Assembly: GCF_014699135.1 (NCBI RefSeq) | Contig: NZ_JACOFT010000001.1 | Span: forward strand, 62,001-126,000 | Length of the DNA: 64,000 bases | Reading direction: 5' to 3' | From: Cognatundibacterium aquatile | Lineage (GTDB): Bacteria; Pseudomonadota; Gammaproteobacteria; Burkholderiales; Burkholderiaceae_D | Part shown: positions 2,440 through 14,849 of the stretch, piece by piece | Layout: each line of letters begins with the position of its first letter | How positions within the stretch are numbered: position 1 is the stretch's first letter | Translations under genes and position numbers: made by a program | Notes under the pieces: generated by a model | The model's input: only the letters and a program-made list of their open reading frames with translations | Told to the model about the DNA's origin: nothing | The model's database searches: none

Positions 2440-2594
2440 TTTTAGTGCCTGTAGTGGCCTGATGGCCGCACAATGACTGGCACTATCGGCGCCACCGAGT
2501 ACACAACAATGAGCACAACAATGCAGGCCAAGATGCAAGCGCGGCAAAACCGCAGCCACCGCCACTGCCGGTAACGCCGAATTCAGCAACATCC

Positions 2595-2645
2595 CCGCCA
2601 GAGGACGACCTCTGCGGTTCCGATTTTTTGCAGGGACGACCCTGC
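2595..2645 (+). ncRNA. Guanidine-II (mini-ykkC) riboswitch
   Basis: Two consecutive GC-rich hairpins have identical ACGA loops: CCGC-AGAGG-ACGA-CCTCT-GCGG (2595-2617) and GCAGGG-ACGA-CCCTGC (2630-2645), with a 12-base linker. Paired stem-loops with ACGR loops just upstream of the ribosome binding site are the signature of the guanidine-II riboswitch. It lies about 20 bases before an SMR exporter, its usual target. Guanidine binding to the loop pair would be expected to free the AAGGAAC ribosome binding site at 2654-2660. Confidence 0.9.
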
Positions 2646-2665
2646 CACCGCACAAGGAACGCAAC

Positions 2666-2986
2666 ATGAACTGGCTTATCCTCATCACCGCAGGCTTGTT
2701 TGAAATCGTCTGGGCAATCGGCCTCAAATATACCGAAGGATTTACCCGCTTCTGGCCCAGCGCGTTGACGCTGGCGGCAATGGCAGTGAGCGTGGGCTTA
2801 CTCGGCATCGCCATGAAGAGCCTGCCGGTCGGCACAGCCTACGCAATCTGGGTCGGCGTCGGCGCCGTCGGCACTGCGATTCTGGGCATCATCCTGTTCG
2901 GCGAATCCGCCAACCCGGCCCGCCTGCTCAGCCTCGCCCTGATCGTCTGCGGCATCATCGGCCTGAAACTCGCCACGCCTGCGTAA
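2666..2986 (+). CDS. gdx: SMR-family guanidinium exporter (Gdx/SugE type), 106 aa
   Basis: A four-helix small multidrug resistance protein of usual length. Glu13 in [16 protein letters not shown] is the essential proton/substrate carboxylate of the family. The following [14 protein letters not shown] loop and helix 2 are Gdx/SugE-like rather than EmrE-like. SMR dimers of this subtype exchange guanidinium for protons across the inner membrane. The upstream guanidine-II riboswitch supports a guanidinium rather than a biocide substrate. The start ATG follows AAGGAAC by five bases. Confidence 0.92.
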
Positions 2987-2990
2987 GTTA

Positions 2991-3050
2991 GTCGCCGGAA
3001 ATGCGCCTGTGCATAAGGGCGGATTTATGCATAGGTGCATCGGGCGATTG
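2991..3050. repeat. Long imperfect inverted repeat downstream of gdx
   Basis: TGCGCCTGTGCATAA (3002-3016) pairs with TTATGCATAGGTGCA (3025-3039), 13 of 15 positions. Weaker flanking complementarity (GTCGCCGG / CGGGCGAT) may extend the stem. There is no following T run, so it is not a standard terminator. It could stabilise the gdx transcript's 3' end. Confidence 0.6.
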
Positions 3051-3091
3051 CGAGTGATTCATCCTCTAAATGACAGACGAATTGCCAGAAT

Positions 3092-3280
3092 TCTGCATAC
3101 TCCCCCCTGTTTTTAAGAAAACACCCCAAATCTCTGCACAAACATTGGGCTTGTAGATATACCCCCTGGAGTATATTTTTTGGGTTTTGAAGGCGTCGGA
3201 CGCGGTGGATTGGATACTTGATACCGAATAGGTAACGCTGGCATCAGTTGGTATGATTATCATTAAAAGAAGCTTGGGGA
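3092..3280 (+). repeat. R1 repeat, copy B (long form), left end of integron block 1
   Basis: The core at 3097-3174 runs from ATACTCCCCCC to TGGAGTAT. It is followed by the ~100-base right extension shared with copies C-F (TTTTGAAGGCGTCGGACGCG, GTGGATTGGAT, then AAGAAGCTTGGG). Within the core, GTTTT-TAAG-AAAAC forms a hairpin. CCCCAAATCTCTGCA pairs in part with the TGTAGAT-containing right side. The attC of the last cassette lies immediately to the right. Confidence 0.85.
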
Positions 3281-3287
3281 TCGGGGT

Positions 3288-3355
3288 GAGCAACGTGGAG
3301 TGAGGGGTGACGCAGCTTTGTCGCGGCGCGTCCCCCCCGCTGTAGGGTTAGTTTT
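3288..3355 (-). other. attC-like recombination site after the 109-aa cassette gene
   Basis: On the minus strand the site begins CTAACCC just after the stop codon. It contains a stem (GGGGGGACGC pairing with GCGTCACCCC, one mismatch) and ends CTCCACGTTGCTC. The order R''-L''-stem-L'-R' matches attC sites, but R' (GTTGCTC) departs from GTTRRRY, so the site may be poorly active. Confidence 0.6.
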
Positions 3356-3359
3356 TCAC

Positions 3360-3689
3360 TCAGGAAACGACAGAGACGTGATCGATAAACCCGACTTTCT
3401 GACCTTGAGAATAGATTTCGACAGCTTGGTAACTTGTTGAATTTGGCGGCATTACACGACTAAATTTGGCGGGTGCACAGGTCATGACCTGCGGCCAATT
3501 GCCCGGCTTTTGATTTAGATAAAGATCAAGAATGAGGATTGTAGGATTTATACCTTGCGGCTCTCGCATAGTAAAAATTGCTTCAACTCCAGGGTTGCCC
3601 ACAACTACATCGCCAGCGACATGGAAGTCATCCGGTTTTGGAGGCATAGTGTTAAGCCAAGCGTGCCAGTCTCTACATTGAATTGCCAT
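3360..3689 (-). CDS. Hypothetical cassette protein, 109 aa
   Basis: A compact soluble protein without signal peptide. MPPKPDDFHVAGDVVV, NPGVEAIF and GNWPQVMT resemble, from memory, a family of small hypothetical proteins often seen as integron cassettes. I know no function. The start is preceded by CAGGGAGAGAG, a strong ribosome binding site. The attC follows directly after the stop. A ~70-base upstream leader is shared with the pseudogene at 3827-4225, suggesting both were once similarly expressed cassettes. Confidence 0.8.
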   Translation of the reverse strand: MAIQCRDWHAWLNTMPPKPDDFHVAGDVVVGNPGVEAIFTMREPQGINPTILILDLYLNQKPGNWPQVMTCAPAKFSRVMPPNSTSYQAVEIYSQGQKVGFIDHVSVVS

Positions 3690-3694
3690 AACTC

Positions 3695-3762
3695 TCTCCC
3701 TGAGATTTAAAAACGAGACATTGTTTCAACTGCATCACATGGCGTCTCGTGAACCATGGTCA
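3695..3762 (-). repeat. Duplicated cassette leader, copy 1
   Basis: On the minus strand CATGGTTCACGAGACGCCAT, then GTCTCGTTTTTAAATC and GGGAGAG, lead into the 109-aa gene. The same series (CATGGTT, AGACxCCATGT, GTCTCxCTT, AAATCA, GGGAGA) recurs before the pseudogene start at 4225. GAGAC and GTCTC form a small inverted repeat in both. It could be a shared 5' untranslated or promoter module. Confidence 0.6.
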
Positions 3763-3821
3763 TAAAAAAAACGAAAGGGGAAGCAATGAGGGTTGCGCGA
3801 CCTATTGCGCAGCCCTCATTG
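3763..3821 (-). terminator. Terminator-like hairpin after the pseudogene
   Basis: GCAATGAGGG-TTGCGC (3782-3797) pairs with GCGCAG-CCCTCATTGC (3806-3821), one mismatch in 16. On the minus strand the stem is followed, after nine bases, by an eight-T run (3763-3771). The T run is displaced from the stem, so termination may be inefficient. Confidence 0.6.
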
Positions 3822-3826
3822 CTTAC

Positions 3827-4225
3827 TTACTTAGGCTTAGGTTTCGCTTTACCGATGCGGTGAAGTGTCCCCAATCTCATTTATCAGTATCATTTCAATA
3901 ACGTCCGATAGCCCTATCTCCTCTTTGCTGAATTTGACAACGGTTCCGTTCTCCAGAAATGCTTTGCTATCGTCTGGTCTTATTCTACGAATCGTCAGCA
4001 AATAAGGAGGTTTTCCAGTAAATCCTTTGTTTACTTCAACTGCAAAGTCTTTTTGTCTGTACATCCTGCGGACGCGACTGTGAACTCCATATCGTTGAAA
4101 TTCTACTTGACGCCAAGTAGAATCTCTTCAGTTCCATGCGCAGAGAATGCAGGTGAGACTGTAAATATTGCAGCGGTCACTGGCGCCATTAAACGCTTTA
4201 CTACCACATTGCATTGCTTATTCAT
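3827..4225 (-). pseudogene. Decayed secreted-protein cassette gene
   Basis: From ATG at 4225, behind GGGAGATAG, a signal peptide is encoded (MNKQCN, hydrophobic core, FSAHGTEE). The frame then meets TAG at 4103-4105. Past the stop it continues sensibly (NFNDMEFTVASAGCTDKK). It then shifts at a five-A run (4050-4054) into a frame giving DFAVEVNKGFTGKPPYLL. A third shift near 3880 restores an ending (HRIGKAKPKPK, stop 3827). Three lesions in one short gene point to decay. A 71-residue open piece with an ATG at 4064 (3849-4064) is what simple ORF calling would report. Sequencing error in homopolymers is an alternative for two lesions. Confidence 0.75.
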
Positions 4226-4229
4226 ATCT

Positions 4230-4300
4230 ATCTCCCATTGATTTGAAGTGAGACTTTATAAAAGGTACAGCGCAACATGGTGTCTAGCAAACCATGACTT
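4230..4300 (-). repeat. Duplicated cassette leader, copy 2
   Basis: This is the counterpart of 3695-3762, with CATGGTTTGCTAGACACCAT then GTCTCACTT, AAATCAATGGGAGATAG before the ATG at 4225. The middle of the module is less similar than the two ends. Confidence 0.6.
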
Positions 4301-4301
4301 G

Positions 4302-4359
4302 GAACTTAATTCTGAGTTCCGCCGCCGGAGGCGGTCCGCTGGAACGACCTGTTATGTCG
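4302..4359 (-). other. attC site after the DUF1877 cassette
   Basis: On the minus strand the site reads CGACATAACAGGTCGTTCC, then a GC stem (GGACCGCC-TCC-GGCGGCGG), then GAACTCAGAATTAAG. The TAAC...CGTTC...CCGCC-loop-GGCGG...AACTCA...GTTA-like order is that of standard attC sites. R'' (ACATAAC) and R' (ATTAAGT) are each slightly off consensus. Confidence 0.8.
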
Positions 4360-4381
4360 TAGGCGACACACATTCATGTCG

Positions 4382-5032
4382 TTACTGGTAGATGACGAGA
4401 ACATGGTGGCCAGACTTCGCAGCCTTCCTATAAAAACCTTGAAGCCCCCGAAAGGCAGGAAGCAAAAACTCCTCGAATACTGAATCTTCTTCTTCAAGCC
4501 AGCCGATACCACCAACATCGAACTTGGCCATTTCCGCTCGATTGAACGACCTTCGAAGGTCAGCCTCTGTAATTCGCCCAAGTGCATCCGCTAACTTCGT
4601 CACTTCGCTCGGCGTGAAGTGGCGGGCATTACCCATACCCAGATTGATCTTGGGATCGCGCTGACTCTCCTTTCCGCGACCCTCGATCGCCTCCAGTGCG
4701 GGATCGGTTGGGATGGCATTCGTATCCTCCGGCGATACCCCAAGCTTTTGAAGCTCATCGTTCATCACGCGAGTGAACTCAGCCTTGTCATAGTCGGTCC
4801 CCGACTTCGATTCTCGATCAATAGCTCGATAGCTAGCGATCTGCTGTGCCTGCTCCTTACGTTTCTTCTCGGAAGCCAGCCAAGCGAGAAGGTCATAGTC
4901 CTTGTCAACATCGAAGAGCACTGCCGAGGCAAAGCGTGGGTCACTTTTGATGTTCCAGACTAGAGCCGGCTGCTCACGAAGGTATTGAAGCTGCCCCTCG
5001 TCAACGTGAACGTAGTAAGCGATAACGCTCAT
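4382..5032 (-). CDS. DUF1877 (YfbM-like) family protein, 216 aa
   Basis: The N-terminus MSVIAYYVHVDEGQLQYL, followed by a DVDKDYDLLAWLAS stretch, fits DUF1877, whose members start MG/MSxxxYY and carry a conserved D(I/V)DK-W/Y-LH-like segment near residue 60. A charged middle (KKRKEQAQQ) and a long C-terminal extension are present. The biochemical role of the family is not established. It is the first gene after the attI-like leader at 5046-5172, starts behind AAGGAAC, and is followed by a good attC, so it is the promoter-proximal cassette of its block. Confidence 0.8.
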   Translation of the reverse strand: MSVIAYYVHVDEGQLQYLREQPALVWNIKSDPRFASAVLFDVDKDYDLLAWLASEKKRKEQAQQIASYRAIDRESKSGTDYDKAEFTRVMNDELQKLGVSPEDTNAIPTDPALEAIEGRGKESQRDPKINLGMGNARHFTPSEVTKLADALGRITEADLRRSFNRAEMAKFDVGGIGWLEEEDSVFEEFLLPAFRGLQGFYRKAAKSGHHVLVIYQ

Positions 5033-5045
5033 ATTCTTGTTCCTT

Positions 5046-5172
5046 CGAAATAACTTTTATTTAATTTGACAAAAGTGAAGCTTAACTCGCAATGTAAAAA
5101 AAGACAATTTTCTCCGACTGTCTTCAAAGCCTTATGCAACCTTGTTGTAATTAGCGGTAGTGAATATCAATG
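5046..5172 (-). promoter_or_regulatory. attI-like leader with cassette promoter, copy 1
   Basis: A conserved AT-rich leader. On the minus strand TTGTCT (5103-5108) and TAAGCT (5080-5085), separated by 17 bases, form a sigma-70 promoter pointing at the DUF1877 gene. The left edge (AAAAGTTATTTCG) is where the GTTRRRY insertion point lies in copy 3c (GTTAGAC at 13104-13110); here it is degenerate. The integrase fragment starts 13 bases to its right on the plus strand, the usual intI/attI arrangement. Confidence 0.8.
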
Positions 5173-5184
5173 CAGTGTAATCAG

Positions 5185-5361
5185 ATGGAAAACATCACTT
5201 CACCGACATCGCCAACACCCCGTTTATTCGATCAGGTGCGGGAACGTTTGCGTTATCAGCGTTACCTCTTCGCAACTGAAAAACCAAGCGCATGGGATAC
5301 GTTTCTTCATACGCTGGCAACAGACAAAAATCGTCTTAAAAACGGCAGGCGAGCGGCCTGA
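5185..5361 (+). pseudogene. intI: Integron integrase, N-terminal fragment
   Basis: From ATG at 5185 the frame reads 58 codons. Residues ~12-26, RLFDQVRERLRYQRY, match the N-terminal core-binding segment of integron integrases (family pattern LLDQ-RE-IRY-HYSLRTE), and TEK follows. After that the resemblance fades, and the frame ends beside R1 copy C. The catalytic domain (R-H-R-Y) and the IntI-specific patch are absent, so no activity is possible. Position and divergent orientation relative to the leader at 5046-5172 agree with intI. This is the main evidence that the region derives from an integron. Confidence 0.8.
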
Positions 5362-5363
5362 AT

Positions 5364-5553
5364 TCTGCATACTCCCCCCTATTTTTAAGAAAACACTCCA
5401 AATCTGTACATCAACATTGGGCTTGTATATATACACCCGGGAGTATATTTTTGGCGTTTTGAGGGTGTCCGACGCGGTGGATTGGATCACCAAGGGCAGA
5501 TGGATAATGCCGGGGTCAGGCAGATGCGATAATTGTTGAAGGAAACTTGAGGC
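5364..5553 (+). repeat. R1 repeat, copy C (long form)
   Basis: The core at 5369-5446 (ATACTCCCCCCT to CCCGGGAGTAT) is followed by the right extension (GGCGTTTTGAGGGTGT, GCGGTGGATTGGATCACC, ATGCGATAATTGTTGAAGG). It truncates the integrase fragment on its left and meets an attC on its right. Confidence 0.85.
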
Positions 5554-5561
5554 TTTGGAAA

Positions 5562-5617
5562 AGAACGTTTGAGTTCAACGGCAGAGGCGACAGAGCGACA
5601 CCGTGCAAAGTTAACTT
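5562..5617 (-). other. attC-like site after the 71-aa membrane cassette
   Basis: On the minus strand AGTTAACTTTGCACGG opens the site, a weak GC stem follows, and GTTGAACTCAAACGTTC closes it. The AACTCAAACGTT end is typical of L'-R'. R' ends GTTCTTT rather than GTTRRRY. A perfect 7-bp hairpin (CTTGCCG-AGTTA-CGGCAAG, 5614-5632) lies between it and the gene's stop. Confidence 0.6.
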
Positions 5618-5635
5618 GCCGAGTTACGGCAAGAT

Positions 5636-5851
5636 TTAACGAACAGCGCCATGCAACATTGAAAAGACAATCGCCAACAGGATCAGGAAGGCGGCTGAGT
5701 CCAGAAAGTCAATTTCTTTTAGTCCAAAGACCGGGGGCAAAACACGATTCCAACAAATCTTGAAAGTCCAGACAAGCAAAGCAAGCATTAATGGTCCGAT
5801 GACCAAAATTGGAATCGTGCTAATAGCAAATTGCACAACAGAATCAGACAT
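5636..5851 (-). CDS. Small inner-membrane protein, 71 aa
   Basis: Two hydrophobic helices are visible: about residues 9-31 (STIPILVIGPLMLALLVW) and 50-66 (AAFLILLAIVFSML), joined by a short loop with KEIDFLD. No family is recognised. The ribosome binding site is AGGAAG six bases before the ATG. It is the only gene in its block, followed by an attC-like site. Confidence 0.7.
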   Translation of the reverse strand: MSDSVVQFAISTIPILVIGPLMLALLVWTFKICWNRVLPPVFGLKEIDFLDSAAFLILLAIVFSMLHGAVR

Positions 5852-5888
5852 TAAACTTCCTTTTTTGATAATAGAAACTCAGACCACT

Positions 5889-5932
5889 CGTTCACTTAAT
5901 GTGCAACAGGTCAACCGACGCACAGTTATACG
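5889..5932 (-). other. Possible short attC between leader and 71-aa gene
   Basis: On the minus strand GTATAACTGTGC and GCACATTAAGTGAAC are near-complementary arms around a GTTG-containing centre. The arms resemble R''-L'' and L'-R', but the site is short and no gene lies between it and the leader. It may mark a deleted first cassette. Confidence 0.4.
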
Positions 5933-5941
5933 CCTGACTTG

Positions 5942-6005
5942 TTTTAAATCAACATTAACACAATGATGCATATATAGCAATTAAGTTTCAATCGTCTTAA
6001 CAGGC
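5942..6005 (-). promoter_or_regulatory. attI-like leader with cassette promoter, copy 2 (diverged)
   Basis: Aligned with the other leaders it keeps ACATTAAC, AATG, GCAATT and CGTCTTAACAGGCC at matching spacings. On the minus strand TTGCTA (5975-5980) and TAATGT (5952-5957), separated by exactly 17 bases, retain the promoter. This is the most diverged of the five copies. Confidence 0.65.
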
Positions 6006-6061
6006 CCATCCAGAAAAAGGCAGCACATCATGCTATCAAACCTGCGAAAAGCTGCTCACAT

Positions 6062-6250
6062 TCTGCATACTCCCCCCTGTTTTTAAGAAAATACCCAATA
6101 TCCCTGCATGAACATTGAGCTTGTAGAGATACCCCGGGGAGTATGTTTTGAGGGTTTTGAGCGGGTTGAGGGCAAGGAGGATCAATCACCGGGAGCAGAT
6201 CGGCAACGTCAGACTCAGGCTGATGCGATGATTGTTGAAGGAAGCTTGGG
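6062..6250 (+). repeat. R1 repeat, copy D (long form)
   Basis: The core at 6067-6144 (ATACTCCCCCCT to ACCCCGGGGAGTAT) is followed by the extension ending GATGATTGTTGAAGGAAGCTT. It separates the 71-aa gene block from the three-gene block to its right. Confidence 0.85.
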
Positions 6251-6279
6251 AATTTAGGGGTTCTCCGTTGACGGACTGC

Positions 6280-6642
6280 TTAGCCGGCATACCACACACC
6301 CAAAATCATTACCGTCGCAATAATTGCCGGCATTGAAATTGCGACGATTTCGACCTTTCGGCCAAAGGAACGCGGCCGACTCAGGCGACGAAACGCGACA
6401 ACGTTTAATGAGGTGGCCACAAGAGAAAGCACCCCTGCACCACACACCGCAAATGCGTAGATCGCGAGTACAGGCAGGCCACAGCTAAAATCTGGGTGTT
6501 GCTCCTTGAACGAGGAAAGCTGCGCCCACGCCCAGCCAACCGGGGCAAGCAGCGCAAGGGCAAATGTCATAAAGGATGCGACGCGCAGATTTTCTTTGAT
6601 GGCGGTGTCGTGTCTGCTATTCGTTTTGATCTGCTTGCTCAT
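6280..6642 (-). CDS. Small inner-membrane protein, 120 aa
   Basis: The frame is open upstream, but [20 protein letters not shown] at 6642, behind AGGAAGAAG, is the convincing start. It has about three hydrophobic segments: near residues 25-42 ([19 protein letters not shown]), 55-80 ([20 protein letters not shown]) and the C-terminal 20 residues. A basic loop ([12 protein letters not shown]) suggests inside-positive topology. The start lies inside the end of the 108-aa gene (26-base overlap), implying translational coupling. No family is recognised. Confidence 0.75.
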
Positions 6643-6943
6643 CTTCTTCCTGATCCCCGTCATCGTCATACTCGCAATCGCAGTAGAACGCCTGTCCTCC
6701 GCAGCTTGGACACCTTTCCACATCGCATCCGATGACGTGGAATTGGCCTTTGATAACGGCGCAGTCATGGCAAGGGTGCTCATTGGCGCCCCAGTCTTCG
6801 TTCTCTTCGCCATAGCGAATGCGTTGTTGCTCTGCGCCAGCAATCGAATAGCTGTGCTGCAACTGCGACTCTTCGATTCGTTCCGGCCAGCCTTCGATGA
6901 CCTGCGTGCCGTGATAGTTGATCAATTTCTTTTCCATCTGCAT
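6617..6943 (-). CDS. Zinc-ribbon-like cysteine-rich protein, 108 aa
   Basis: The C-terminal half holds CHDC (near residue 58), [12 protein letters not shown] and YCDCEY, i.e. paired CxxC motifs suited to binding zinc, followed by a very acidic tail ([11 protein letters not shown]). The N-terminus contains [16 protein letters not shown]. Similar HxGxxVxEGWPERI...GCDxExCPxCGGQ proteins occur in many proteobacteria as uncharacterised small proteins, so this is probably a real cassette gene. It lies 25 bases after the MGAWG gene and overlaps the 120-aa membrane gene, so all three may be one transcript. Confidence 0.8.
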
Positions 6944-6968
6944 CGCTCATCCTTGTCTGAATCAAGCG

Positions 6969-7763
6969 TTAACGTGTCGGTGATGACGCGTGGTTATGAT
7001 AGAAAGCATCGATTTCTCTGGCGATTCTGCCGATGGCTAACCACACGATGCTTTCCGGGTTGTACGGCAGCAGAGCCTCGACCCGGATACTTGTTTGTTC
7101 CAGACCGAACAGAATATTCCGTCGTTGATCGCCCGGGAGAATCGCAACATGCGCGCACTGTTTGCGAAATGCATTGAAGGGCAAGGTCGGATCAGTGGCC
7201 GCAATGTGACGAGGTGCAGCGTCAACCGAGGCAGCTCGCCAGGACAACGCTGAAAAAACAGGATCAATACTTTCCGCCAATTCTTTGTAGCCAACCAGAA
7301 TGAGTAGTGCCACATTACCGCTCGGCAAAGATAAGGAAAAAACCGAACCGATTGGTGCTGTGGTACGCACTTTTTGGGGTTTGGGCGGCGTGAGTTGCAT
7401 CGGCAATTCTGTAGGTTGAATGCGGTTCAACCGTGCCTCAAGTGCTTTCAGAACCTTGATTCGTGCTGCGACATTTGTCGGCGCATCGCGTTTCCACACA
7501 AAGACATCACCACCTGATTGCAATAAAGAAAGCGCTTTCGCCTTGAGCGATGCCGACAAGCGACCATATTTCCAGGCGGTGTCTGCCAAAGCAAAATAAA
7601 CACAGCAGGCAATTTCTGGCTGTGCCAAAAGCGGGCCATAACCACCAAGAATTTTTTGTTCAGCCTCTTCGCTTGCACAACCCTGCGTCAAATGCGTGAC
7701 ATAGTCATCCCGCACATCGCAACTTGTGTCGTCCGAATAAAGACCCGTCCCCCACGCGCCCAT
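6969..7763 (-). CDS. MGAWG-type (DUF4259-like N-terminus) protein, 264 aa
   Basis: The protein begins MGAWGTGLYSDDTSCDVRDDY, the characteristic start of a family of uncharacterised proteins with MGAWGxGxFxxD motifs. The second of two adjacent ATGs (7763) is chosen because it fits the family start and the GAGG spacing. The remainder has a helical first half and a proline-rich linker (MQLTPPKPQK). No catalytic motif is recognised. It is directly downstream of the leader at 7769-7835. Confidence 0.75.
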   Translation of the reverse strand: MGAWGTGLYSDDTSCDVRDDYVTHLTQGCASEEAEQKILGGYGPLLAQPEIACCVYFALADTAWKYGRLSASLKAKALSLLQSGGDVFVWKRDAPTNVAARIKVLKALEARLNRIQPTELPMQLTPPKPQKVRTTAPIGSVFSLSLPSGNVALLILVGYKELAESIDPVFSALSWRAASVDAAPRHIAATDPTLPFNAFRKQCAHVAILPGDQRRNILFGLEQTSIRVEALLPYNPESIVWLAIGRIAREIDAFYHNHASSPTR

Positions 7764-7768
7764 CATCG

Positions 7769-7835
7769 CCTCTAAGATTAATTGAATTGAACAAAAGTGA
7801 AGCTTAATCAGGATTGTTCAAAAAGACAATTTGGT
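7769..7835 (-). promoter_or_regulatory. attI-like leader with cassette promoter, copy 3
   Basis: On the minus strand TTGTCT (7824-7829), 17 bases and TAAGCT (7801-7806) form the same promoter as in copy 1, including the ACAAAAGTGAAGCTTAA block on the plus strand. The edge next to the gene reads CTTAGAGG, one change from a GTTAGAG insertion core. Confidence 0.75.
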
Positions 7836-7950
7836 GCACCCACTTAAAACACCATAGTGCTAGGTTGCGATTGCGAATGCCTGATCTCGATGCAGTTGAA
7901 GCACACCGTTAAAAAATCATCGCGTCAGCCACAGGCCAACAACGCAATTT

Positions 7951-8130
7951 ATGCATACTCCCACCAGATTTTAAGAAAACACCCCATATCCCTGCATAAA
8001 CATTGGGCTTGTAGAGATACCCCGGGGAGTATATTTTTGGCGTTTTGAGGGTGTGGGAGGCGTTGGATTGGATGAGGGTGCGCAGACGATGTGTGGTCAG
8101 CTTGGTGCGATTATTGTTGAAGGGAACAGG
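7951..8130 (+). repeat. R1 repeat, copy E (long form)
   Basis: The core at 7955-8032 (ATACTCCCACC, a two-base departure, to ACCCCGGGGAGTAT) is followed by the extension (GGCGTTTTGAGGGTGTGGGA, GGATTGGATGA, GCGATTATTGTTGAAGG). Inside, CCCTGCATAAACATTGGG and TGTAGAGAT can fold as in the other copies. Confidence 0.85.
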
Positions 8131-8456
8131 CGAGTTTTTGATTCAAGGTGTGAGATGACAAGCGTGACCCAGCTTGCGGGGCACATTCATTCGGCTGACG
8201 GGCGCACGCCTGTTTGGACGCCGCCCGCTAGTACGGCAGGCTGGCTGACCAGCAGCGTCTGTCCATAGGTCGTCGGCAGTGATCGATCTCGCAGACAGAC
8301 CCGGTCATGTTCCGGGTAGGTGATGTGATCGACTGGTGCGCGTGTTCCCACGACCAGACAGCAGATTTGCGAAGAACTCCGGTTCTCTAAGTCCCGCCGC
8401 ATTTATTCACTGCCTCTGCAACATGCGCCGCCATCTCGAACGTCATCCAGGCATCA
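8131..8456. other. Gene-poor stretch between R1 copy E and the SRPBCC gene
   Basis: No convincing gene. On the minus strand, frames here give only short pieces, for example one ending AAHVAEAVNKCGGT near 8390, which look like remnants. GGGCGGCGT and GCGTGCGCCC around 8200-8225 could form an imperfect stem, possibly an eroded attC, but no R cores are seen. Confidence 0.4.
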
Positions 8457-8966
8457 TTACGGCTTGCTCGCGACCTTTGTTTGCAAATCGTTTAGATAGC
8501 CATGAATGTTCGTGGTGTGACCAAAAATAAACCGGGAGACAAAACGGTAAACGGGGTTATAAACCTCACCGTCCTCGGTAATAGTGAGGGTAACCCCCTC
8601 AGGGGCAGCTTCTAGTTCAAGTGTCCACGTGCCGCCAAAAGGAAGTTTTGGATCAGCGATCCGCCTTACAAGGCGTTTGTTGGGAATAGACTCCACTGTC
8701 TCATAGGGAATACCTTCACCATGAGAATCGGTTTCTTTCCATACGGTATGCCCGTTCGTATCGGGCAGACGCTCAACCGCACGGACACCACTGCGCCATG
8801 TGGGGTAAGCACTATAGTTTGTGATGATCTCCCACAGTTGTTCGGTACTGACACGAAAGCGGGCGGATTCACTGACACGGTGCTTTTCTGGTAGCAGCAG
8901 GCCAACAACGACAAGCAAAGCGACGAGCGCCAGAAGACCGACAACCAAACCAACTATCCATTTCAT
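8457..8966 (-). CDS. Membrane-anchored SRPBCC-family protein, 169 aa
   Basis: An N-terminal helix (residues 4-26, IVGLVVGLLALVALLVVVGL) anchors a START/Bet v1-like domain. Typical SRPBCC features are present: RFRVSTEQLWEIITNYSAYPTWRSG at the N-terminal strand-helix, TVWKETD, and GGTWTLELEAAPEGVTLTI in the later strands. Such domains bind hydrophobic ligands. The ligand is unknown. The start follows AAGGGGAAAAAA. This is the left-most intact gene of the largest block. No clean attC follows. Confidence 0.85.
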   Translation of the reverse strand: MKWIVGLVVGLLALVALLVVVGLLLPEKHRVSESARFRVSTEQLWEIITNYSAYPTWRSGVRAVERLPDTNGHTVWKETDSHGEGIPYETVESIPNKRLVRRIADPKLPFGGTWTLELEAAPEGVTLTITEDGEVYNPVYRFVSRFIFGHTTNIHGYLNDLQTKVASKP

Positions 8967-9194
8967 TTTTTTCCCCTTTTAAAGTGTGTACGAAAACTAA
9001 ATGAATGATGCTTAAGGTTTGAGATGAGAAGCGATGCCTTGCTTGCTGGCAGCTCACTGAATTGTATGTTCAGGCAGCGTTACTCATTAGAAGTTTTTTT
9101 GAAGTATGGATTAATGTGCGTTTCTTACCAACTGAGTTCAATTTCCAAAACTCTATAAAAAAAAGGCGCTGCGCTTTCGATTATTTACCCAACT

Positions 9195-9371
9195 CTAATT
9201 TGCCTTTCGCTGGCCACCAGATTGCGCTAGCACTTCAGGATATTGAATTCGCTTTTTTTCGCGGTATTCAACCAGCTGCTCAAATTGGGCGCTCTCGAAT
9301 AATTTCCCACATTGATCAATAACTTTTTTATCCCAAGCAATTTTGAAACCTTTAATAATACGGTATATCAC
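9195..9371 (-). CDS. Small hypothetical protein, 58 aa, GTG start
   Basis: A basic/acidic, largely helical small protein (IIKGFKIAWDKK, CGKLFESAQFEQLVEYREKK, end SGGQRKAN). The GTG start at 9371 follows a weak AGGG. It could equally be the C-terminal remnant of a larger gene whose front was lost, because the frame is open upstream nearly to the hydroxylase stop. No family is recognised. It occupies an otherwise empty 440-base gap. Confidence 0.45.
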   Translation of the reverse strand: MIYRIIKGFKIAWDKKVIDQCGKLFESAQFEQLVEYREKKRIQYPEVLAQSGGQRKAN

Positions 9372-9409
9372 CCTAAATGCAACGCAGGCGGGCCCGCTTG
9401 AATGAGGGA

Positions 9410-10186
9410 TCAGGAATCGCTTGGGTCCGGCTCATAGACGTCTTTGAAGGCGAGCATTTCGTGCAGTCTTTCCTCGTTCCTGCCAGGAAAACCACACCGT
9501 TTGGCGAAATTGTCAGTGTCCTTGAAGGTACCGAAGAGTCGATCCCAGATCGTCAGGTCGCCGAAGTTGAAGTTGTGAACATCTAGTTGATGGTGAATCG
9601 AGTGATGCTCAGGCCGCTGCAAGAACCAGCCGAGCCACCTTGGCGTGCGGATATTCGAGTGGTAAAAATACTCGCCAGCGGCTCCGAAAAAAGAGGTCCA
9701 CGCCCCGGCTAGCGCTGATCCCCCGAAGACGCAGTAGATGAGGAAACCCGTCAGGATAGAATCGGCTGCGATCTCGACAGGGTGCTTGTAAAAGGAAGTG
9801 AGAACTTCAATGCGCGCGGGGCTATGGTGAATCTGGTGGAACGCCAACCAAAAGCCGTTAGCGTGTCGCAGGCGATGCCACCAATAAAAGATGAACGTTC
9901 CGACGAACCAGTAGAATGCTCCCTCGAGAATCGGGCTATCCCAATGCCCGAGGTTGAGAAGAGCATGATCCCTGAAATGTTTGTTCCATACGAGACCGCC
10001 GACACCGACCAGCGTCAACTGCATGATATTCATCAGCGCTGCTCGCTTGTACCAGCCGCGAACGTGAGGCAACTCGCGACCCGGGCGAATTCGCTCAAAT
10101 AGAAAGAACGCCAATGTCACAACGCAGATGAGCGAAGCCGGAAGGAGTTGTTCGAGGAGCTGCAAGGGAACGATGTCGATTTCCAT
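9410..10186 (-). CDS. Fatty acid hydroxylase / sterol desaturase family protein, 258 aa
   Basis: A multi-pass membrane di-iron enzyme. The histidine clusters of the superfamily are all present: HRLRH (104-108), HQIHH (117-121), a single His in EYFYHSN (176), and HHSIHH (194-199). Four or so membrane helices surround them. The superfamily oxidises C-H bonds of lipids at the cytoplasmic face. The substrate is unknown. An upstream ATG at 10210 is in frame, but the attC core ends just before the ATG at 10186, so the latter is chosen. This is an unusually large catalytic protein for a cassette. Confidence 0.9.
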   Translation of the reverse strand: MEIDIVPLQLLEQLLPASLICVVTLAFFLFERIRPGRELPHVRGWYKRAALMNIMQLTLVGVGGLVWNKHFRDHALLNLGHWDSPILEGAFYWFVGTFIFYWWHRLRHANGFWLAFHQIHHSPARIEVLTSFYKHPVEIAADSILTGFLIYCVFGGSALAGAWTSFFGAAGEYFYHSNIRTPRWLGWFLQRPEHHSIHHQLDVHNFNFGDLTIWDRLFGTFKDTDNFAKRCGFPGRNEERLHEMLAFKDVYEPDPSDS

Positions 10187-10257
10187 GACGCCTAAGGTTG
10201 AGTTATCCACATCAACGGCTTCATCGTTGATTCCTTGTTGAACATTAAATTAAGACG
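10187..10257 (-). other. attC site between the 90-aa gene and the hydroxylase gene
   Basis: On the minus strand the site opens TCTTAATTTAATGTTCAAC, has a perfect 7-bp stem (ATCAACG / CGTTGAT) in the centre, and closes GATAACTCAACCTTAGGC. The TAACTCAA-C-CTTAGGC end differs from the classical TAACTCAAGCGTTAGGC by very few bases. Confidence 0.8.
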
Positions 10258-10522
10258 CATCGCCATCATCTCCTCCGACATCAAAACCATCCGTAGAACT
10301 TGTGCCCGAGATGTAGTGCCGATCGCCCGAATCGCCAGGCACATCATCCAATGCATCGCGTAATTTTCGATCACGTGATGCATCCCAAATGAGACATGTG
10401 CCAATGATCAATAAAATACAGGCACCAAAGAACCATTCCAGCCCCAGCAACCGATAGCCTATTGTCCCCAACGTAGCACCTGCGCCGCAGAAGATCAGCC
10501 CAACGATGTCTTTAATGGTCAT
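10250..10522 (-). CDS. Small membrane protein with acidic tail, 90 aa
   Basis: Two close hydrophobic segments (residues ~5-24, DIVGLIFCGAGATLGTIGY, and ~28-46, LEWFFGACILLIIGTCLIW) are followed by a hydrophilic Asp/Gly/Ser-rich C-terminus (DGFDVGGDDGDAS). No family is recognised. It is flanked by attC sites on both sides, so it is a complete single-gene cassette. Confidence 0.75.
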   Translation of the reverse strand: MTIKDIVGLIFCGAGATLGTIGYRLLGLEWFFGACILLIIGTCLIWDASRDRKLRDALDDVPGDSGDRHYISGTSSTDGFDVGGDDGDAS

Positions 10523-10526
10523 AGCG

Positions 10527-10598
10527 TTTTAAGGTATGGAGGTTCCCGACACAGATGCGGCTTTATCGCGCAGCCTCCGGTGAACCTCAGGGTTAGGC
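10527..10598 (-). other. attC site after the SGNH hydrolase gene
   Basis: R'' is exact (GCCTAAC, 10592-10598) and overlaps the stop codon. The arms GAGGTTC and GAACCTC pair perfectly, and GCGGCTTTATCGCG on the plus strand forms the inner part. The other end reads CCATACCTTAAAACG, the same L'-R' version as the site at 11267-11352. Confidence 0.8.
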
Positions 10599-11243
10599 TA
10601 CATTTTTCGAGAGCAGCGGTTTAACAACTTCAGCCACCGCGCTGCCAAGGATCAAATGCTGTTCAAGATCAAGATGCACGCCATCGACCTTGCTTGATGT
10701 GACGACGCTGCCAGCATCGAAAAAATGGCAGCCCGCTTCTTCGCACACGATACGGTAAGCGGCGGACAAACCAACACACTTAACGTCGCCACCCGCGAAT
10801 TTTGGTGCAATCGGCCCTTGCGGCGTTCTGATGGGTGGCGGTGCAACGACAAGAATTTCTGGCACAGGCATGCCGGGTTCGATGGGCGCGGTGCGGATGG
10901 CAGAGACAAGCGCACTGATACCCTGAGATGAATGCCAGGCATTGTGCTCGTGCATAGACTGGAAATCGTTTGTCCCGAGCATCAGAACAACAAGCGCAAG
11001 CGGCGAATGCATTTCGATTCGTTGAGCCAGCCCGACAAGCCCGTTCCGCCCTGGCTTGTAGGGATCGTCCCATGCCGTACGCCGTCCGTTCAGGCAATCT
11101 TCGATGACACGAACCTTCGAACCAGCGGAACAGAGAGACATTTCCATGACGCCCGGCCAGCGCTGCTCAAACAGCAGGCGCTTTCGCGTCGTTGGGACTA
11201 TGCCCCACGACAAAGAATCTGAGTAGACAAGGATGTTTTGCAT
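10593..11243 (-). CDS. SGNH/GDSL-family hydrolase, 216 aa
   Basis: All SGNH blocks are visible: YSDSLSWG (nucleophile Ser10), a block II glycine near VGLAQRI, GTND (90-93, block III), and DGVHLD (187-192) with the catalytic Asp-His pair. The family cleaves esters, e.g. acyl or acetyl groups on lipids or carbohydrates. There is no signal peptide, so it is cytoplasmic. Length is typical. It starts behind CGGAG and is followed by a textbook attC, making it one of the best-defined cassettes in the region. Confidence 0.92.
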   Translation of the reverse strand: MQNILVYSDSLSWGIVPTTRKRLLFEQRWPGVMEMSLCSAGSKVRVIEDCLNGRRTAWDDPYKPGRNGLVGLAQRIEMHSPLALVVLMLGTNDFQSMHEHNAWHSSQGISALVSAIRTAPIEPGMPVPEILVVAPPPIRTPQGPIAPKFAGGDVKCVGLSAAYRIVCEEAGCHFFDAGSVVTSSKVDGVHLDLEQHLILGSAVAEVVKPLLSKNVA

Positions 11244-11266
11244 GGCGGCTCCGGAATGTGTGGTCT

Positions 11267-11352
11267 ACGTTTAAGGTATAGGATAATAATACGAAGCATT
11301 ATTCGTCCCTTCTAACCGCCAGTTAGAACATTGTCTTTTGGGCAGGGTTACT
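11267..11352 (-). other. attC-like site after the 136-aa secreted-protein gene
   Basis: On the minus strand it opens GAGTAACCCTGCCC at the stop codon and closes CCTATACCTTAAACG, matching the 10527-10598 site end. The interior has TTCTAAC-TGGCG-GTTAGAA, a perfect 7-bp stem, and AATAATGCTTCGTATTATT. At about 86 bases it is the longest attC here. Confidence 0.7.
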
Positions 11353-11758
11353 CACAAGTGAATTTATAGCTGCTCACGGAGGCTACGGCCTTATCTTTAG
11401 GAGACTCTTCCCCTTCTGTGATAACTCGAAGTTTGTTGCCGTAAGCATCTTGGAACAAGAATGAGCACGGCGCAAGACCGGTGCCTGAGCAGCTCTCCAC
11501 TTCGCGGTAACCCAAATCCCAAAATATCATTCCATTGCCGTAGCTAATATCAGGGTCTTCATTTGCTTGGTTCAGCGGTTTTGAACGTAGCGGCTGCCAG
11601 CCAACTGCAAGTAAAGATTTTCGGGCTTTATGATAGCTTTTTCCATTAATAACTGGCAGTTTTGCGTGTGTAGTTGGCGAACATGAACTTGCTTTAACGC
11701 TATTTACAGATGCTATCGCTAAAATTGCCGCCGTTACGTAAAAAGTGGTTTTTATCAT
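11348..11758 (-). CDS. Secreted hypothetical protein, 136 aa
   Basis: It has a signal peptide (MIKTTFYVTAAILAIASV, cleavage around VKASSCSP) and four to six cysteines that could form disulfides. KLPVINGKSYHKARKSLLAVGWQP resembles the PASTA-like YxxARxxLxxxGW pattern seen in small secreted proteins. No function known. It begins two bases after the upstream gene's stop, so the two share a transcript and probably a cassette. Confidence 0.8.
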   Translation of the reverse strand: MIKTTFYVTAAILAIASVNSVKASSCSPTTHAKLPVINGKSYHKARKSLLAVGWQPLRSKPLNQANEDPDISYGNGMIFWDLGYREVESCSGTGLAPCSFLFQDAYGNKLRVITEGEESPKDKAVASVSSYKFTCE

Positions 11759-11760
11759 CG

Positions 11761-12294
11761 TTATTGCTGTGTGAAAGTAAGTGCTTTGTGCTCTGCTTGC
11801 TTAATCGTAATTCTGTCACCGGAAACAAAAGCCCACCCTTCGTGCTCTCCAATTTCTTTAGTAGAGTTAGGGTTAATCACCACCTCTAATACTTTGCTCT
11901 TACCGCTACTTGGTCTGTTTATTTCTATATTGAAGGATTGCGCTTGGCCAGAAGTATTAGCGATGACTGCTACAAATCCACTGAATAAAAGGGCACGACG
12001 AAAACTAACCTTCACCTCGGCTTCACGCAAATTTGCCTCATGAATTTTTGCATCAGCCTCAGCCGCAAGCGAGTTGAATTTTTGTTGCCGTTCATTTGTC
12101 AAAACTTCGAGAGTTTTGTATTGTCGCTGTATATCTTGTATTTTTCGGTCTGCTGTTGAGGCCAAATCCAACATTTGAGCGTTGAGCTTGGATATTTCAG
12201 CCTCTTTTTCAGTAATCTTTCCTTGATAAAAAACTACTAGCCCGACTAACGATGTTACCGCGATTGCAGTGATGATCCAAGGTGTGTACTTCAT
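11761..12294 (-). CDS. Membrane-anchored coiled-coil protein, 177 aa
   Basis: An N-terminal membrane helix (residues 5-23, PWIITAIAVTSLVGLVVF) is followed by a coiled coil (ITEKEAEISKLNAQMLDLAS through AEADAKIHEANLREAEVKVS). A C-terminal beta-rich domain with INPNSTKEIGEHEGWAF comes last. The protein probably faces the periplasm. I know of no named family. It lies between an attC on its upstream side and the secreted 136-aa gene 2 bases downstream; the two may act together at the envelope. Confidence 0.75.
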   Translation of the reverse strand: MKYTPWIITAIAVTSLVGLVVFYQGKITEKEAEISKLNAQMLDLASTADRKIQDIQRQYKTLEVLTNERQQKFNSLAAEADAKIHEANLREAEVKVSFRRALLFSGFVAVIANTSGQAQSFNIEINRPSSGKSKVLEVVINPNSTKEIGEHEGWAFVSGDRITIKQAEHKALTFTQQ

Positions 12295-12318
12295 GTGTTT
12301 GGTTTGTTGTAAATGTTA

Positions 12319-12390
12319 TCTCTAACGCTAAATTTAACCAGCAAAAAAGCGAAGCATTTTTGTCCACGCTGAACCGACATTTATACTTTG
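12319..12390 (-). other. attC site after the 228-aa cassette gene
   Basis: On the minus strand it closes GGTTAAATTTAGCGTTAGAG (R' GTTAGAG, one base off GTTRRRY). The centre is AAAATGCTTCGCTTTTTT, a stem with the TTCG-type loop common in attC sites. The opening GTATAAATGTCGGTTCAGCG is a weak R''-L''. Confidence 0.75.
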
Positions 12391-12406
12391 CTGACATATG
12401 CGTCAA

Positions 12407-13093
12407 CTATGCCCAAGTGGTGGTAAAAAGTTCTGCACGATCACTGGCCTCAGTGCCAGGTTCACCATGTCTTAGTGGATCCGCTGCGGCTTTGATAACC
12501 CTAATGGATTTCTCGTCAACACCAGAGAAATCGCGAAACGCCTGCCATTGTTGATTCTTGGCGACTTCTCGTAAGCCAGTTCTGGCCGCGTAGTGGTGGC
12601 GAAGAGACTCTATCGCTCTGTAGCAATAGAAACCTGTGTCGTCTGCATGCTTCATTGCTGAAACGAGATCATCAAAGCAGCGATGGAGAAATACTCCATG
12701 CTCGCCGGTTGTTTTCTGTCTTAGTTGAAGCAGCGCTTCATTGAGTTCAATGTCTTGATTTCTGTTCGCGATGCACGGAATGTCAATTCCGAAAACGTAA
12801 TCGATGCCCCTCTCGCGGGACAATACCCGTGTGATTTCGATATCGTACGCATAACCTTTGAGGTACCCAATCATCGCCAGATGCCCTTGGACTAGGTTCT
12901 TAACGACATTTCGTAAGTCAAAGATGTTCCATTCGTGGTCGCTGGTGACCCATACCGCAACTTGGTTGAAGACAATGCTGACTTGTGCCTCGGCCTTGAC
13001 CTTCGTGGCGATATGATCGAACTTGACGGAAAACCCAAGCGATAGTTGGGCTCGTTCTGGAAGAACGATGCCGTGGAAGAGGTATGGCTCCAT
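12407..13093 (-). CDS. Hypothetical cassette protein, 228 aa
   Basis: A soluble protein whose middle contains GIDYVFGIDIPCIANRNQD and whose second half is helical, with HRCFDDLVSAMKHADDTGFY and YRAIESLRHHYAA. The end (AADPLRHGEPG) recalls proteins that sense or bind nucleic acids or are HEPN-like, but I cannot assign it. It is the first gene behind the leader at 13104-13190, only ~12 bases from the insertion core GTTAGAC, and no strong ribosome binding site fits in between. Confidence 0.75.
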   Translation of the reverse strand: MEPYLFHGIVLPERAQLSLGFSVKFDHIATKVKAEAQVSIVFNQVAVWVTSDHEWNIFDLRNVVKNLVQGHLAMIGYLKGYAYDIEITRVLSRERGIDYVFGIDIPCIANRNQDIELNEALLQLRQKTTGEHGVFLHRCFDDLVSAMKHADDTGFYCYRAIESLRHHYAARTGLREVAKNQQWQAFRDFSGVDEKSIRVIKAAADPLRHGEPGTEASDRAELFTTTWA

Positions 13094-13103
13094 GATTTTG
13101 CAA

Positions 13104-13190
13104 GTCTAACTTTTATTTAATTTGACAAAAATGAAGATTAACTTGGAATGTTAAAAAAGACAATTTTCTTCAAATGCCTTGAAACCATCG
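13104..13190 (-). promoter_or_regulatory. attI-like leader with cassette promoter, copy 4 (intact core)
   Basis: It has an exact GTTAGAC core on the minus strand (13104-13110) next to the first cassette. The promoter is TTGTCT (13158-13163), 17 bases, TAATCT (13135-13140). On the plus strand TTTGACAAAAATGAAGATTA and TTAAAAAAGACAATTTTCTT are nearly identical to copies 1 and 5. This copy most resembles a functional attI. Confidence 0.85.
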
Positions 13191-13210
13191 AATGTAGCTC
13201 AATTGCTTCG

Positions 13211-13558
13211 CTATTGCTCACTCTTCAGGTCAGGTGCCAATGGCGGGAGTATCTCGATATTTCTGAGCCAGTGTTCAACCAGGGTCGGCCATGACGAAAT
13301 GGGATGGGGATTGCGTCGCAGGCCGAAAGCGTGGCCGCCTTTGGCGAACAGGTGAACTTCTGTTGGAACGCCCGCTTCGTTCAGTGCTTTCGCGTACAGC
13401 GTGCTGTTGCAAATCTTGTCCACAGGGTCGTCCCACGCTTGTAGTAAAAATGTAGTCGGCGTTTGCGCGGTGACTTTGATCGAAGGGTCGAACGTGGCAC
13501 CAGCGCGGCAAAGGTGACCCGGATAAAGTGCAATCGCATAATCGGGCCAGCTGCTGAG
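13211..13558 (-). pseudogene. Alpha/beta hydrolase (esterase-like), C-terminal fragment
   Basis: The last ~115 codons of an esterase/xylan-esterase-type hydrolase are readable. WPDYAIALYPGHL leads in; TFLLQAWDDPVD and GGHAFGLRRNPHPISSWP supply the acid and histidine of the triad. The nucleophile-elbow half is missing: a TAA lies at 13559-13561 and R1 copy F follows. A late internal start (GTG at 13423) gives only 70 residues. The fragment occupies the position where an integrase gene would lie beside its leader. Confidence 0.8.
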
Positions 13559-13595
13559 TTAATCGGCCGCATCCACAATACAGGCGAACAGCCCG

Positions 13596-13750
13596 CATTC
13601 TGCATACTCCCCCTAGTTTTTAGGAAAACACCCTAAATCCCTGCATGAACATTAGGCTTGCAGACATACCCCGGGGAGTATATTTTTGGTGTTTTGAGGC
13701 TGTGGGAGGCGGTGGATTCGACCACAGAGGGCAGCTAGTCGATTACAGAC
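13596..13750 (+). repeat. R1 repeat, copy F
   Basis: The core at 13604-13681 (ATACTCCCCCTA to ACCCCGGGGAGTAT) is followed by the extension (GGTGTTTTGAGGCTGTGGGA, GCGGTGGATTCGACC), which fades after about 13745. It truncates the esterase fragment on its left. Confidence 0.85.
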
Positions 13751-13831
13751 TTGTTCCTCACGCCAGAACTATTGATTAGTTTTTTGTACTTTTTTGGGGT
13801 AAGGCCAGAGTCCATATAGGAAAAGTTAGGT
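13751..13831 (-). other. Partial attC after the 201-aa gene
   Basis: The R'' core is exact (ACCTAAC on the minus strand, 13825-13831, overlapping the stop). The remainder (ACTCTGGCC, then AACTAATCAATAGTT, a small palindrome, then CTGGCGTGAGGAAC) does not give a clear R'. The right side of the site seems eroded where it meets R1. Confidence 0.45.
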
Positions 13832-14431
13832 TGCATCTGTGCAAGCCCCAAGTTTTTCTCTGACTCTACGTGCTGCTATGACTGCTCTCGCATCACCGCC
13901 TACAAAGCGAACAAATGCCAAATAAAAAACGGCTACGACAAGCATGGCTCCGTATGCCCCAGCAGATTGAACCTTGGACAAAAGTAAGATTAACCATGAA
14001 AAGTAGATGCTCATAGCCAAAACTAGGCTAGTTGAGAACCAAAACAATACCTTGGATTGCAGCCCCAAGTTTACATGAAGTGAGCCGTTTATTACTTCAA
14101 TGTATGGCAAGGCAGCGCGCAGCATAGATAGTGTTAGCCTGCCGGATTCATAGCTCCTCGCAAGAGCCTCTGTAAACTCTGGGGTGCAGATTCTACCAAG
14201 CAAATTACGCGATATCTCTTCATCCTTGGCCCTTCTAACCAAGAGCTTTAGATCCCCATTTTCCTCACACTCTTTAGCCAAAATCTCCAGCCGTTTTAAT
14301 TTTCGATTTCTAAGATGCTCGCTGTGAAATTCAAATATGGATTGGATGGATTTTATGATGGCCGCTATCCCGGCAACGATGGCAGCCGAGGCCGCAGGCC
14401 AAGATTTTAGAATTTCAAATAAATCTGTCAT
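13826..14431 (-). CDS. Membrane protein, 201 aa
   Basis: An N-terminal hydrophobic segment (AASAAIVAGIAAIIKSI, residues ~13-30) is followed by a charged helical middle (RNRKLKRLEILAKECEEN, VRRAKDEEISR). Two C-terminal helices come last (LFWFSTSLVLAMSIYFSWLI and GAYGAMLVVAVFYLAFV), then a basic tail. No family is recognised. The gene starts 14 bases after an exact attC R' core (14445-14451), as expected for the second cassette of its block. Confidence 0.75.
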   Translation of the reverse strand: MTDLFEILKSWPAASAAIVAGIAAIIKSIQSIFEFHSEHLRNRKLKRLEILAKECEENGDLKLLVRRAKDEEISRNLLGRICTPEFTEALARSYESGRLTLSMLRAALPYIEVINGSLHVNLGLQSKVLFWFSTSLVLAMSIYFSWLILLLSKVQSAGAYGAMLVVAVFYLAFVRFVGGDARAVIAARRVREKLGACTDAT

Positions 14432-14444
14432 GGAGATATATTTA

Positions 14445-14510
14445 ATCTAACGTTTGACATAAGAGGTGCGCTTTAGTGCGGCCCACTTAATGGATATATT
14501 AAAGCTTATT
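14445..14510 (-). other. attC site after the 57-aa gene
   Basis: R' is exact (GTTAGAT on the minus strand, 14445-14451), preceded by CTTATGTCAAAC, a standard L'. The opposite side (CATTAAGTGGGCCGC) pairs with GCGCACCTCTTATG imperfectly, and no clear R'' is seen. Confidence 0.65.
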
Positions 14511-14523
14511 TTTTAAAATACAT

Positions 14524-14697
14524 TTAGCCATAAAATGGAAATGCTTTATTAAATGCTGTAATAGAGAGAAGTAAAGCAACTAACGCCGAAAATACGACCT
14601 TCCATACTTTCGGATATGCCTCATAAGCCACGATTGCATTCCAAATTGCGCCCAATGCTAGAACAGTCACTTGGAGATATTGAGTTATAACTTCCAT
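14524..14697 (-). CDS. Small membrane protein, 57 aa
   Basis: An open frame from ATG at 14697 to TAA at 14524. It encodes two hydrophobic segments (residues ~6-25, YLQVTVLALGAIWNAIV; ~33-50, KVVFSALVALLLSITAF) separated by YEAYPKVW. It sits between a leader promoter and an attC, exactly where a first cassette gene belongs, which is the main reason to believe it. No family is recognised. Confidence 0.65.
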   Translation of the reverse strand: MEVITQYLQVTVLALGAIWNAIVAYEAYPKVWKVVFSALVALLLSITAFNKAFPFYG

Positions 14698-14705
14698 TTG
14701 TATGG

Positions 14706-14833
14706 CTCTAACATGATTAATTTAATAAAAGTAAACATTAACTTGGAATGTCAAAAAAGACAATTTTTTTCAACTGTCTTAAAAGCCACATATAAGCCTT
14801 GTTGTATTTGCCGTTTATGAATATGCCTAACCT
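14706..14833 (-). promoter_or_regulatory. attI-like leader with cassette promoter, copy 5 (right edge of the integron)
   Basis: On the minus strand TTGTCT (14758-14763), 17 bases, TAATGT (14735-14740), with a core GTTAGAG (14706-14712) beside the 57-aa gene. Resemblance to copy 1 continues right to about 14833 (CTGTCTTAAAAGCC, CCTTGTTGTATTTG). The dehydrogenase gene begins its 3' end there, and no integrase remnant follows. Confidence 0.75.
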
Positions 14834-14849
14834 TATCCACACTCCACCT

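Follow-up and report, generated by a model that had tools for sequence, protein, structure and literature searches.

Probable repetition of the attI platform in a decayed chromosomal integron of Cognatundibacterium aquatile

Integrons are usually described with one integrase, one attI and one promoter, and the first cassettes are the expressed ones. Can an integron hold its attI platform several times over? A locus of Cognatundibacterium aquatile (GCF_014699135.1; label G000; 3.9 Mb in 17 contigs, scored 100% complete) raises this question. We analyzed a window of 64,000 nucleotides, bases 62001-126000 of contig C1 (NZ_JACOFT010000001.1), in which a row of minus-strand cassette genes lies between a gene that we take, from its context, to be of the sugE exporter type (open reading frame (ORF) 2666-2986) and a dehydrogenase gene. 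A preliminary description had proposed five tandem integron-like blocks here, each with its own attI-like leader and promoter. Our analysis indicates that the segment 3079-14833 is probably a decayed chromosomal integron without an integrase, in which a unit of attI, cassettes and an R1a repeat occurs four and perhaps five times, and whose multiple attI sites were formerly served by an integrase. All units in the segment have one orientation, and one copy keeps a relic of the integrase gene intI.

A repeat search brought out the leaders as a family. They were searched for with a profile hidden Markov model (HMM) trained on relatives' copies only, as a guard against circularity. It recovered four of the five leaders described earlier (those at 5046, 7769, 13104 and 14706) at 38-72 bits on the minus strand, whereas the next-best match in the window scored 5.6 bits and no match exceeded 8.5 bits when 2300-14850 was dinucleotide-shuffled 100 times. 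The fifth, at 5942-6005, gave no match with this profile, and its pairwise score to the consensus was equalled in 46 of 2000 shuffles. Because it sits between two R1 copies, where a leader is expected, it is possibly a decayed leader copy. The leaders are as follows:

5051..5135, minus strand: attI of family A, block 1 (HMM 71.6 bits; relatives-only profile 64.0 bits at 5052-5131)
5942..6005, minus strand: second leader of the preliminary description, unconfirmed, a decayed attI at best
7771..7853, minus strand: attI of family A, block 3 (HMM 52.2 bits; relatives-only 38.2 bits at 7772-7849)
13104..13188, minus strand: attI of family A, block 4 (HMM 76.0 bits; relatives-only 72.3 bits at 13102-13186), the sole window leader with an exact GTTRRRY box
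14710..14791, minus strand: attI of family A, block 5, adjoining the dehydrogenase gene (HMM 55.9 bits; relatives-only 49.7 bits at 14714-14791)

In the relative G018, a homologue of the leader (73% over 64 bases, BLAST E 0.022) immediately precedes an intact intI, and a profile built without the G018 sequence recovered that site at 22.8 bits (E 6.4e-6). Behind leader 5046 we found the start of an integrase gene:

5179..5317, plus strand: 5' relic of intI, ending after CGCTGG (tblastn E 2.6e-5; HMM i-E 2.2e-4)

The relic is a truncated intI of which the first 44 codons are left, and the tblastn match spans 5179-5283; a reverse-strand control of the profile search gave no match. Its end at 5317 coincides with the end of the alignments to the same locus in G008 and G012, whose leaders likewise have an intI start behind them. 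Given the G018 homologue just 5' of an intact intI and the intI start behind leader 5046, the leaders are, by sequence homology, attI sites.

No intI was found in the genome itself: the best match to the profile TIGR02249 was partial and scored 80.6 bits, against a cut-off of 265 bits, and the three genes with matches below the cut-off also fit the general tyrosine-recombinase family. Since no integrase is left, we regard the system as a relic. Above the cut-off, intI is present in 36 of the 294 genomes of the family that were searched, seven of them of the same genus. As a separate observation, a flank found near intact intI in G018, G005, G002 and G011 occurs on contig C11 at ∼431 kb (L030:3761-6443), where it is followed by an R1a repeat in this genome without detected intI; it is perhaps a lost ancestral integron site.

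The blocks are bounded by five copies of the repeat R1a:

3079..3199, plus strand: R1a, left end of block 1, adjoining sugE (HMM 124.7 bits)
5351..5469, plus strand: R1a, joined to the intI relic as on contig C12 (HMM, in the range of 116-125 bits)
6050..6168, plus strand: R1a (HMM 119.6 bits)
7938..8057, plus strand: R1a (HMM 123.1 bits)
13586..13706, plus strand: R1a (HMM 125.1 bits)

These copies scored 116-125 bits with a profile trained on themselves, and the maximum in the same shuffles was 10.1 bits. The repeat placed earlier at the left end of every block was thus recovered there, but it is not specific to the array. A sixth R1 copy lies at 2358, upstream of sugE, and one query gave at least 31 matches in the genome, with 40 of 95 candidates scored. 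Copies of R1 are scattered through the genome, and some of them are joined to attI. A related family, R1b, lies 48-143 bp behind attI at C1:448k, C1:450k, C9:511k and C9:382k (contig and position) and twice on C17; a lone R1b copy was also seen in the window at 29803-29885 (44.9 bits), distant from any attI. At 11 of the 16 attI sites of the genome, an R1-type repeat lies on the intI side at no more than 400 bp and with the same relative orientation. Because C12 and C14 came into the set through their R1, and C1:452k through a comparison, the fair tally is that of the leader search alone, in which 9 of 13 attI have such a repeat. The chance of each such proximity is ∼0.4-0.8% if the R1 density is either estimated from the 48 kb of window beyond the region, which contain a single R1, or assumed to be 150 per genome. 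DNA folding of four R1a copies gave z values of -2.1 to +0.4, that is, no consistent hairpin.

The 16 attI lie at nine chromosomal places and comprise 14 of family A, 12 of which belonged to the training set of the profile, and two of a second family, B. Whole-genome BLAST found 11 leaders with each of two queries, and the family A copy on C12 is weak (16.8 bits). Family B is found here at C1:452.6k and C14:124k, and Undibacterium rivi has it at four places; it matches the sequence that immediately precedes an intact intI in G017. At C14, the family B attI is followed by four good attC and has R1a behind it; at C1:448-453k, two family A copies stand in a row with family B downstream. The repeated platform is thus present, as had been described, but is not special to the locus, since attI with an R1-type repeat occurs elsewhere in the genome. 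A leader pattern scan of named genomes gave a single matching record, U. rivi FT147W, and leader 13104 had no match among plasmid records. On the side, the second attI family was also listed at L024:9628-9734, L031:6006-6114, L112, L255 and L256. On contig C92 of another Undibacterium genome, G007, three family-B-like matches of 17-34 bits lie within 5.5 kb (L253:3794-9270); going by these matches, repeated attI may be more widespread among Undibacterium species.

The comparison of synteny proposed earlier was informative at the locus itself, where the number of blocks among relatives is 0, 1, 3 or 5. G037 has no array, with 41 bp between the aligned parts of sugE and the dehydrogenase gene. 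In G008 and G012, a single R1a and a single attI (weak in G012) accompany an intI relic. U. rivi FT147W (G016), the nearest relative by the array-adjoining dehydrogenase (95%), has R1a at 9265, 11044 and 14532 and attI at 10881, 14364 and 16436, the last one weak. The window has five R1a and four attI. No attI was found in 12 other loci compared (L182-L193, one of just 4.5 kb). The junction 6725-8060, comprising a cassette, the attI at 7771 and the R1a at 7938, is shared with U. rivi at 87.6% identity, which makes it probable, as judged from this alignment, that the repetition had arisen before the two species split. Because U. rivi carries a similar array, misassembly is unlikely. That the platform itself is repeated, as the preliminary description had proposed, is supported by leaders that are homologous to attI, by the 5' relic of intI behind one of them and by the variable number of blocks.

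Between flanks that are shared, the cassettes largely differ. The flanks of seven attI loci were 96-100% matched in U. rivi (one 66%) at ∼90% identity, whereas the cassette part, within segment limits taken from the same alignments as were measured, was matched at 0% at C9:382k, C9:511k, C13:299k and C14:124k, 3% at C12, 16% at the window locus and 50% at C1:448k. In the comparison of C1:147k with G012, it was again 0%. In two of three alignments, that of C14 with U. rivi and that of C1:147k with G012, identity stops in or directly at the R box, the place of the attI crossover. Window positions 5194-5465 align unbroken to C12 through the intI relic, the junction and R1a (78% over 272 bases); because the alignment runs through all three, a truncated platform appears to have been copied between loci. 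C12 and its U. rivi counterpart are single units with a weak attI and R1a on both sides. On this sequence evidence, the system is wider than the locus, older than the species split and decayed.

To look for attC, we used a covariance model whose training set was 26 attC of other genomes in the family, all with intI. The sites considered in the window are as follows:

14445..14504, minus strand: attC, best in the window (E 5e-4 over 2300-15000, 12.7 kb; 0.0027 over the window)
10498..10598, minus strand: weak attC after ORF 10593-11243 (E 0.037), the sole pick of a separate position weight matrix scan
3288..3352, minus strand: candidate for the final attC of block 1, with an R' box that abuts the R1a flank, seen by eye

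For the third, the covariance model gave no report up to E=5. The earlier statement that attC-like sites follow many genes was too strong, there being one site at E 5e-4 and one weak site at 0.037. A strict R-box/L-box search found no attC in the window, and the remaining covariance matches were noise, though the six best all lie on the cassette strand. A match at 13430-13493 (E 0.035) was taken as chance, as it lies inside ORF 13275-13598. The orthologous array of U. rivi has clean attC at 12658-12718 (E 2.5e-8) and 15433-15510 (E 1.6e-5) and a third at E 0.011. By these scores, the attC sites of the window appear mostly decayed.

Taken together, these data make it probable that the segment is a multi-attI chromosomal integron in decay, and its history may be pictured as follows. 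An integrase in the ancestry, of the kind kept by other Undibacterium species, would have inserted cassettes at the attI copies in trans, and each attI copy would thereby have been its own first-cassette position. With less confidence, the platforms may have multiplied through recombination between R1 copies, by tandem accretion here and dispersal elsewhere, which we propose because R1 stands at platform ends and elsewhere in the genome; intI would have been truncated and then lost, and the sites would now be decaying. The fuller idea of a distributed integron, in which one integrase acts in trans on attI outposts, each a separate expressed first-cassette position, while R1-bounded platforms multiply, we put forward tentatively, at somewhat below even chances.

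Several observations weigh against the reading as a multi-attI integron. Family A attI was found at just one of the nine intI-bearing loci, the G018 site being the only match below E 1 among them. The profile search detected no intI relic behind leaders 5942, 7769, 13104 and 14706. An exact terminal GTTRRRY box ends only 3 of the 16 attI (13104, C1:147k and C1:450k), two further matches of this pattern fall upstream of the attI end, and by sequence most attI sites are degenerate at the R box. The window has one significant attC. At E≤0.01 there are at least five in the genome, at least nine in U. rivi and at least two in G008, with 150 candidates scored per genome (of 990 here), and G012 had none among the 150 scored. 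Five of the 16 attI have no R1 within 400 bp. No R1 lies between the attI at 14710 and the dehydrogenase gene, or at that end in G008 and G012, and because R1 is missing there, recombination between R1 copies is not taken as shown. At C9:511k, attI was undetectable in U. rivi. The choice of segment limits from the very alignments that were measured belongs here too.

The same holds for the leaders themselves and for their promoters. The window leaders diverge by 22-40% among themselves, and leader 13104 is nearer to C1:147k (89%) than to its window neighbours; for these reasons, a simple recent tandem duplication is not established. Tandem duplication as the sole process was set aside, since leader 13104 is nearest to copies at other loci. 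The leaders could not be ordered or dated, being short, too diverged and star-like. The promoter proposed earlier was recovered as a hexamer pair with the same spacing, TTGTCT-N17-TAAnnT, in all four confirmed leaders, but a sigma-70 consensus scan was at chance level, with 15 sites against 14.3 in shuffles and none in those four leaders; one site, at 5963-5991, lies within the unconfirmed leader. A promoter in each leader that would keep distal cassettes expressed is hypothetical and has no support from the consensus scan.

Some of these features would also be expected if complete integrons had inserted serially and independently at one hot spot, each losing its intI, with no copying of platforms within the genome. 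The leaders are roughly as far from one another as from those of other species, and at C1:448-453k sites of two attI families follow each other; both observations fit such insertions. The unbroken alignment of 5194-5465 with C12 points instead to copies of one truncated platform and not to separate losses, and we consider serial insertion unlikely. Somewhat less likely still is that IntI excises and inserts the R1-attI composite like an integron cassette, as a circle in which attI replaces attC. By eye, the R1a flank begins directly after an attC R' box in 5 of 11 block ends (2 of the 5 in the window, the other three being illegible), which is how the boundary of a cassette would look, and cassettes with attI in place of attC exist and recombine (PMC12901181). 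However, any attI should show this boundary at its original 3' flank. Also against this reading, the lone composites in L025 and L027 gave no attC at E≤1, and an attI-ORF-attI cassette was reported to undergo complete excision (PMC12901181). It is very improbable that the leaders have nothing to do with integrons and represent a dispersed repeat, regulatory or of the mobile promoter type: their dispersal, their position just upstream of start codons in the window and the scarcity of exact R boxes would fit, but this is contradicted by the homologue at the attI position of an intact intI, by the intI relic behind leader 5046, by neighbour genes that differ between sisters and by the attC of the U. 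rivi array.

Read as a multi-attI integron, the segment resembles a sedentary chromosomal integron in its attI, its cassette genes in one orientation, its apparent attC sites and its intI relic, and differs in that no intI was found, that it has many attI and not one, and that the platform occurs in tandem. Clusters of attC sites lacking integron-integrases (CALIN), for example in Xanthomonas away from the ilvD locus, are alike in having cassettes without intI at several loci, usable in trans; unlike them, the loci here keep their own attI, whereas the excerpts of PMC12444791 consulted describe CALINs by attC only. The criterion given there is at least two attC without intI, the IntegronFinder default (PMC12444791), and C14, with four attC, is such a locus. 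Delta-attI-type cassettes and attI1-(delta)aacA4-attI1 of class 1 and class 2 integrons likewise give more than one attI-derived site per array, and in them, as the excerpts describe, a mostly partial attI replaces the attC of the cassette (PMC12901181). Here, in contrast, attI repeats together with an R1 flank, one copy has an intI relic, and the legible block ends seem to keep attC. Among the literature matches listed (titles and starts of abstracts of openly licensed papers), we found no integron with attI repeated in such a manner, and the papers containing both "Undibacterium" and "integron" had neither word in title or abstract. The integron kind itself is known; what appears new is a variant of the chromosomal integron whose attI platform is repeated, in tandem and dispersed.

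The cassettes of the window are as follows:

3360..3689, minus strand: cassette ORF, 109 amino acids, no Pfam match
4382..5032, minus strand: cassette ORF, 216 amino acids, DUF1877 (E 1.7e-17)
6969..7766, minus strand: cassette ORF, 265 amino acids, no Pfam match, within the segment 6725-8060 shared with U. rivi
8457..13093, minus strand: main ORFs of block 4, polyketide-cyclase-like, fatty-acid hydroxylase, GDSL lipase and others with no Pfam match
13826..14431, minus strand: cassette ORF, 201 amino acids, no Pfam match

A Pfam family was assigned to 4 of the 14 window cassette ORFs tried and to 2 of 5 ORFs behind other attI, one of these below its cut-off; PADLOC gave one weak match in 10. 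Neither Pfam nor PADLOC suggested a common cassette function. ORF 13275-13598 (107 amino acids), between leader 13104 and the R1a at 13586, looks by eye like a cut-off hydrolase and had no Pfam match. The first cassette behind the attI at C1:147k is an FRG-domain gene (L023:7080-7796, E 2.1e-22). Outside the array, a Guanidine-II riboswitch (Rfam, 37.6 bits) lies at window positions 2597-2644, in front of ORF 2666-2986.

The genome has 16 attI, and at the seven of their loci that were compared with a sister species, largely different genes lie between flanks that are shared. This suggests a further means by which many cassettes could be kept close to an entry site. If the idea of a distributed integron is true, such a system would scale by copying its entry site and not by lengthening one array. 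The service of distant attI in trans by an integrase becomes testable in freshwater bacteria, and loci of this kind may escape tools that rely on intI and attC.

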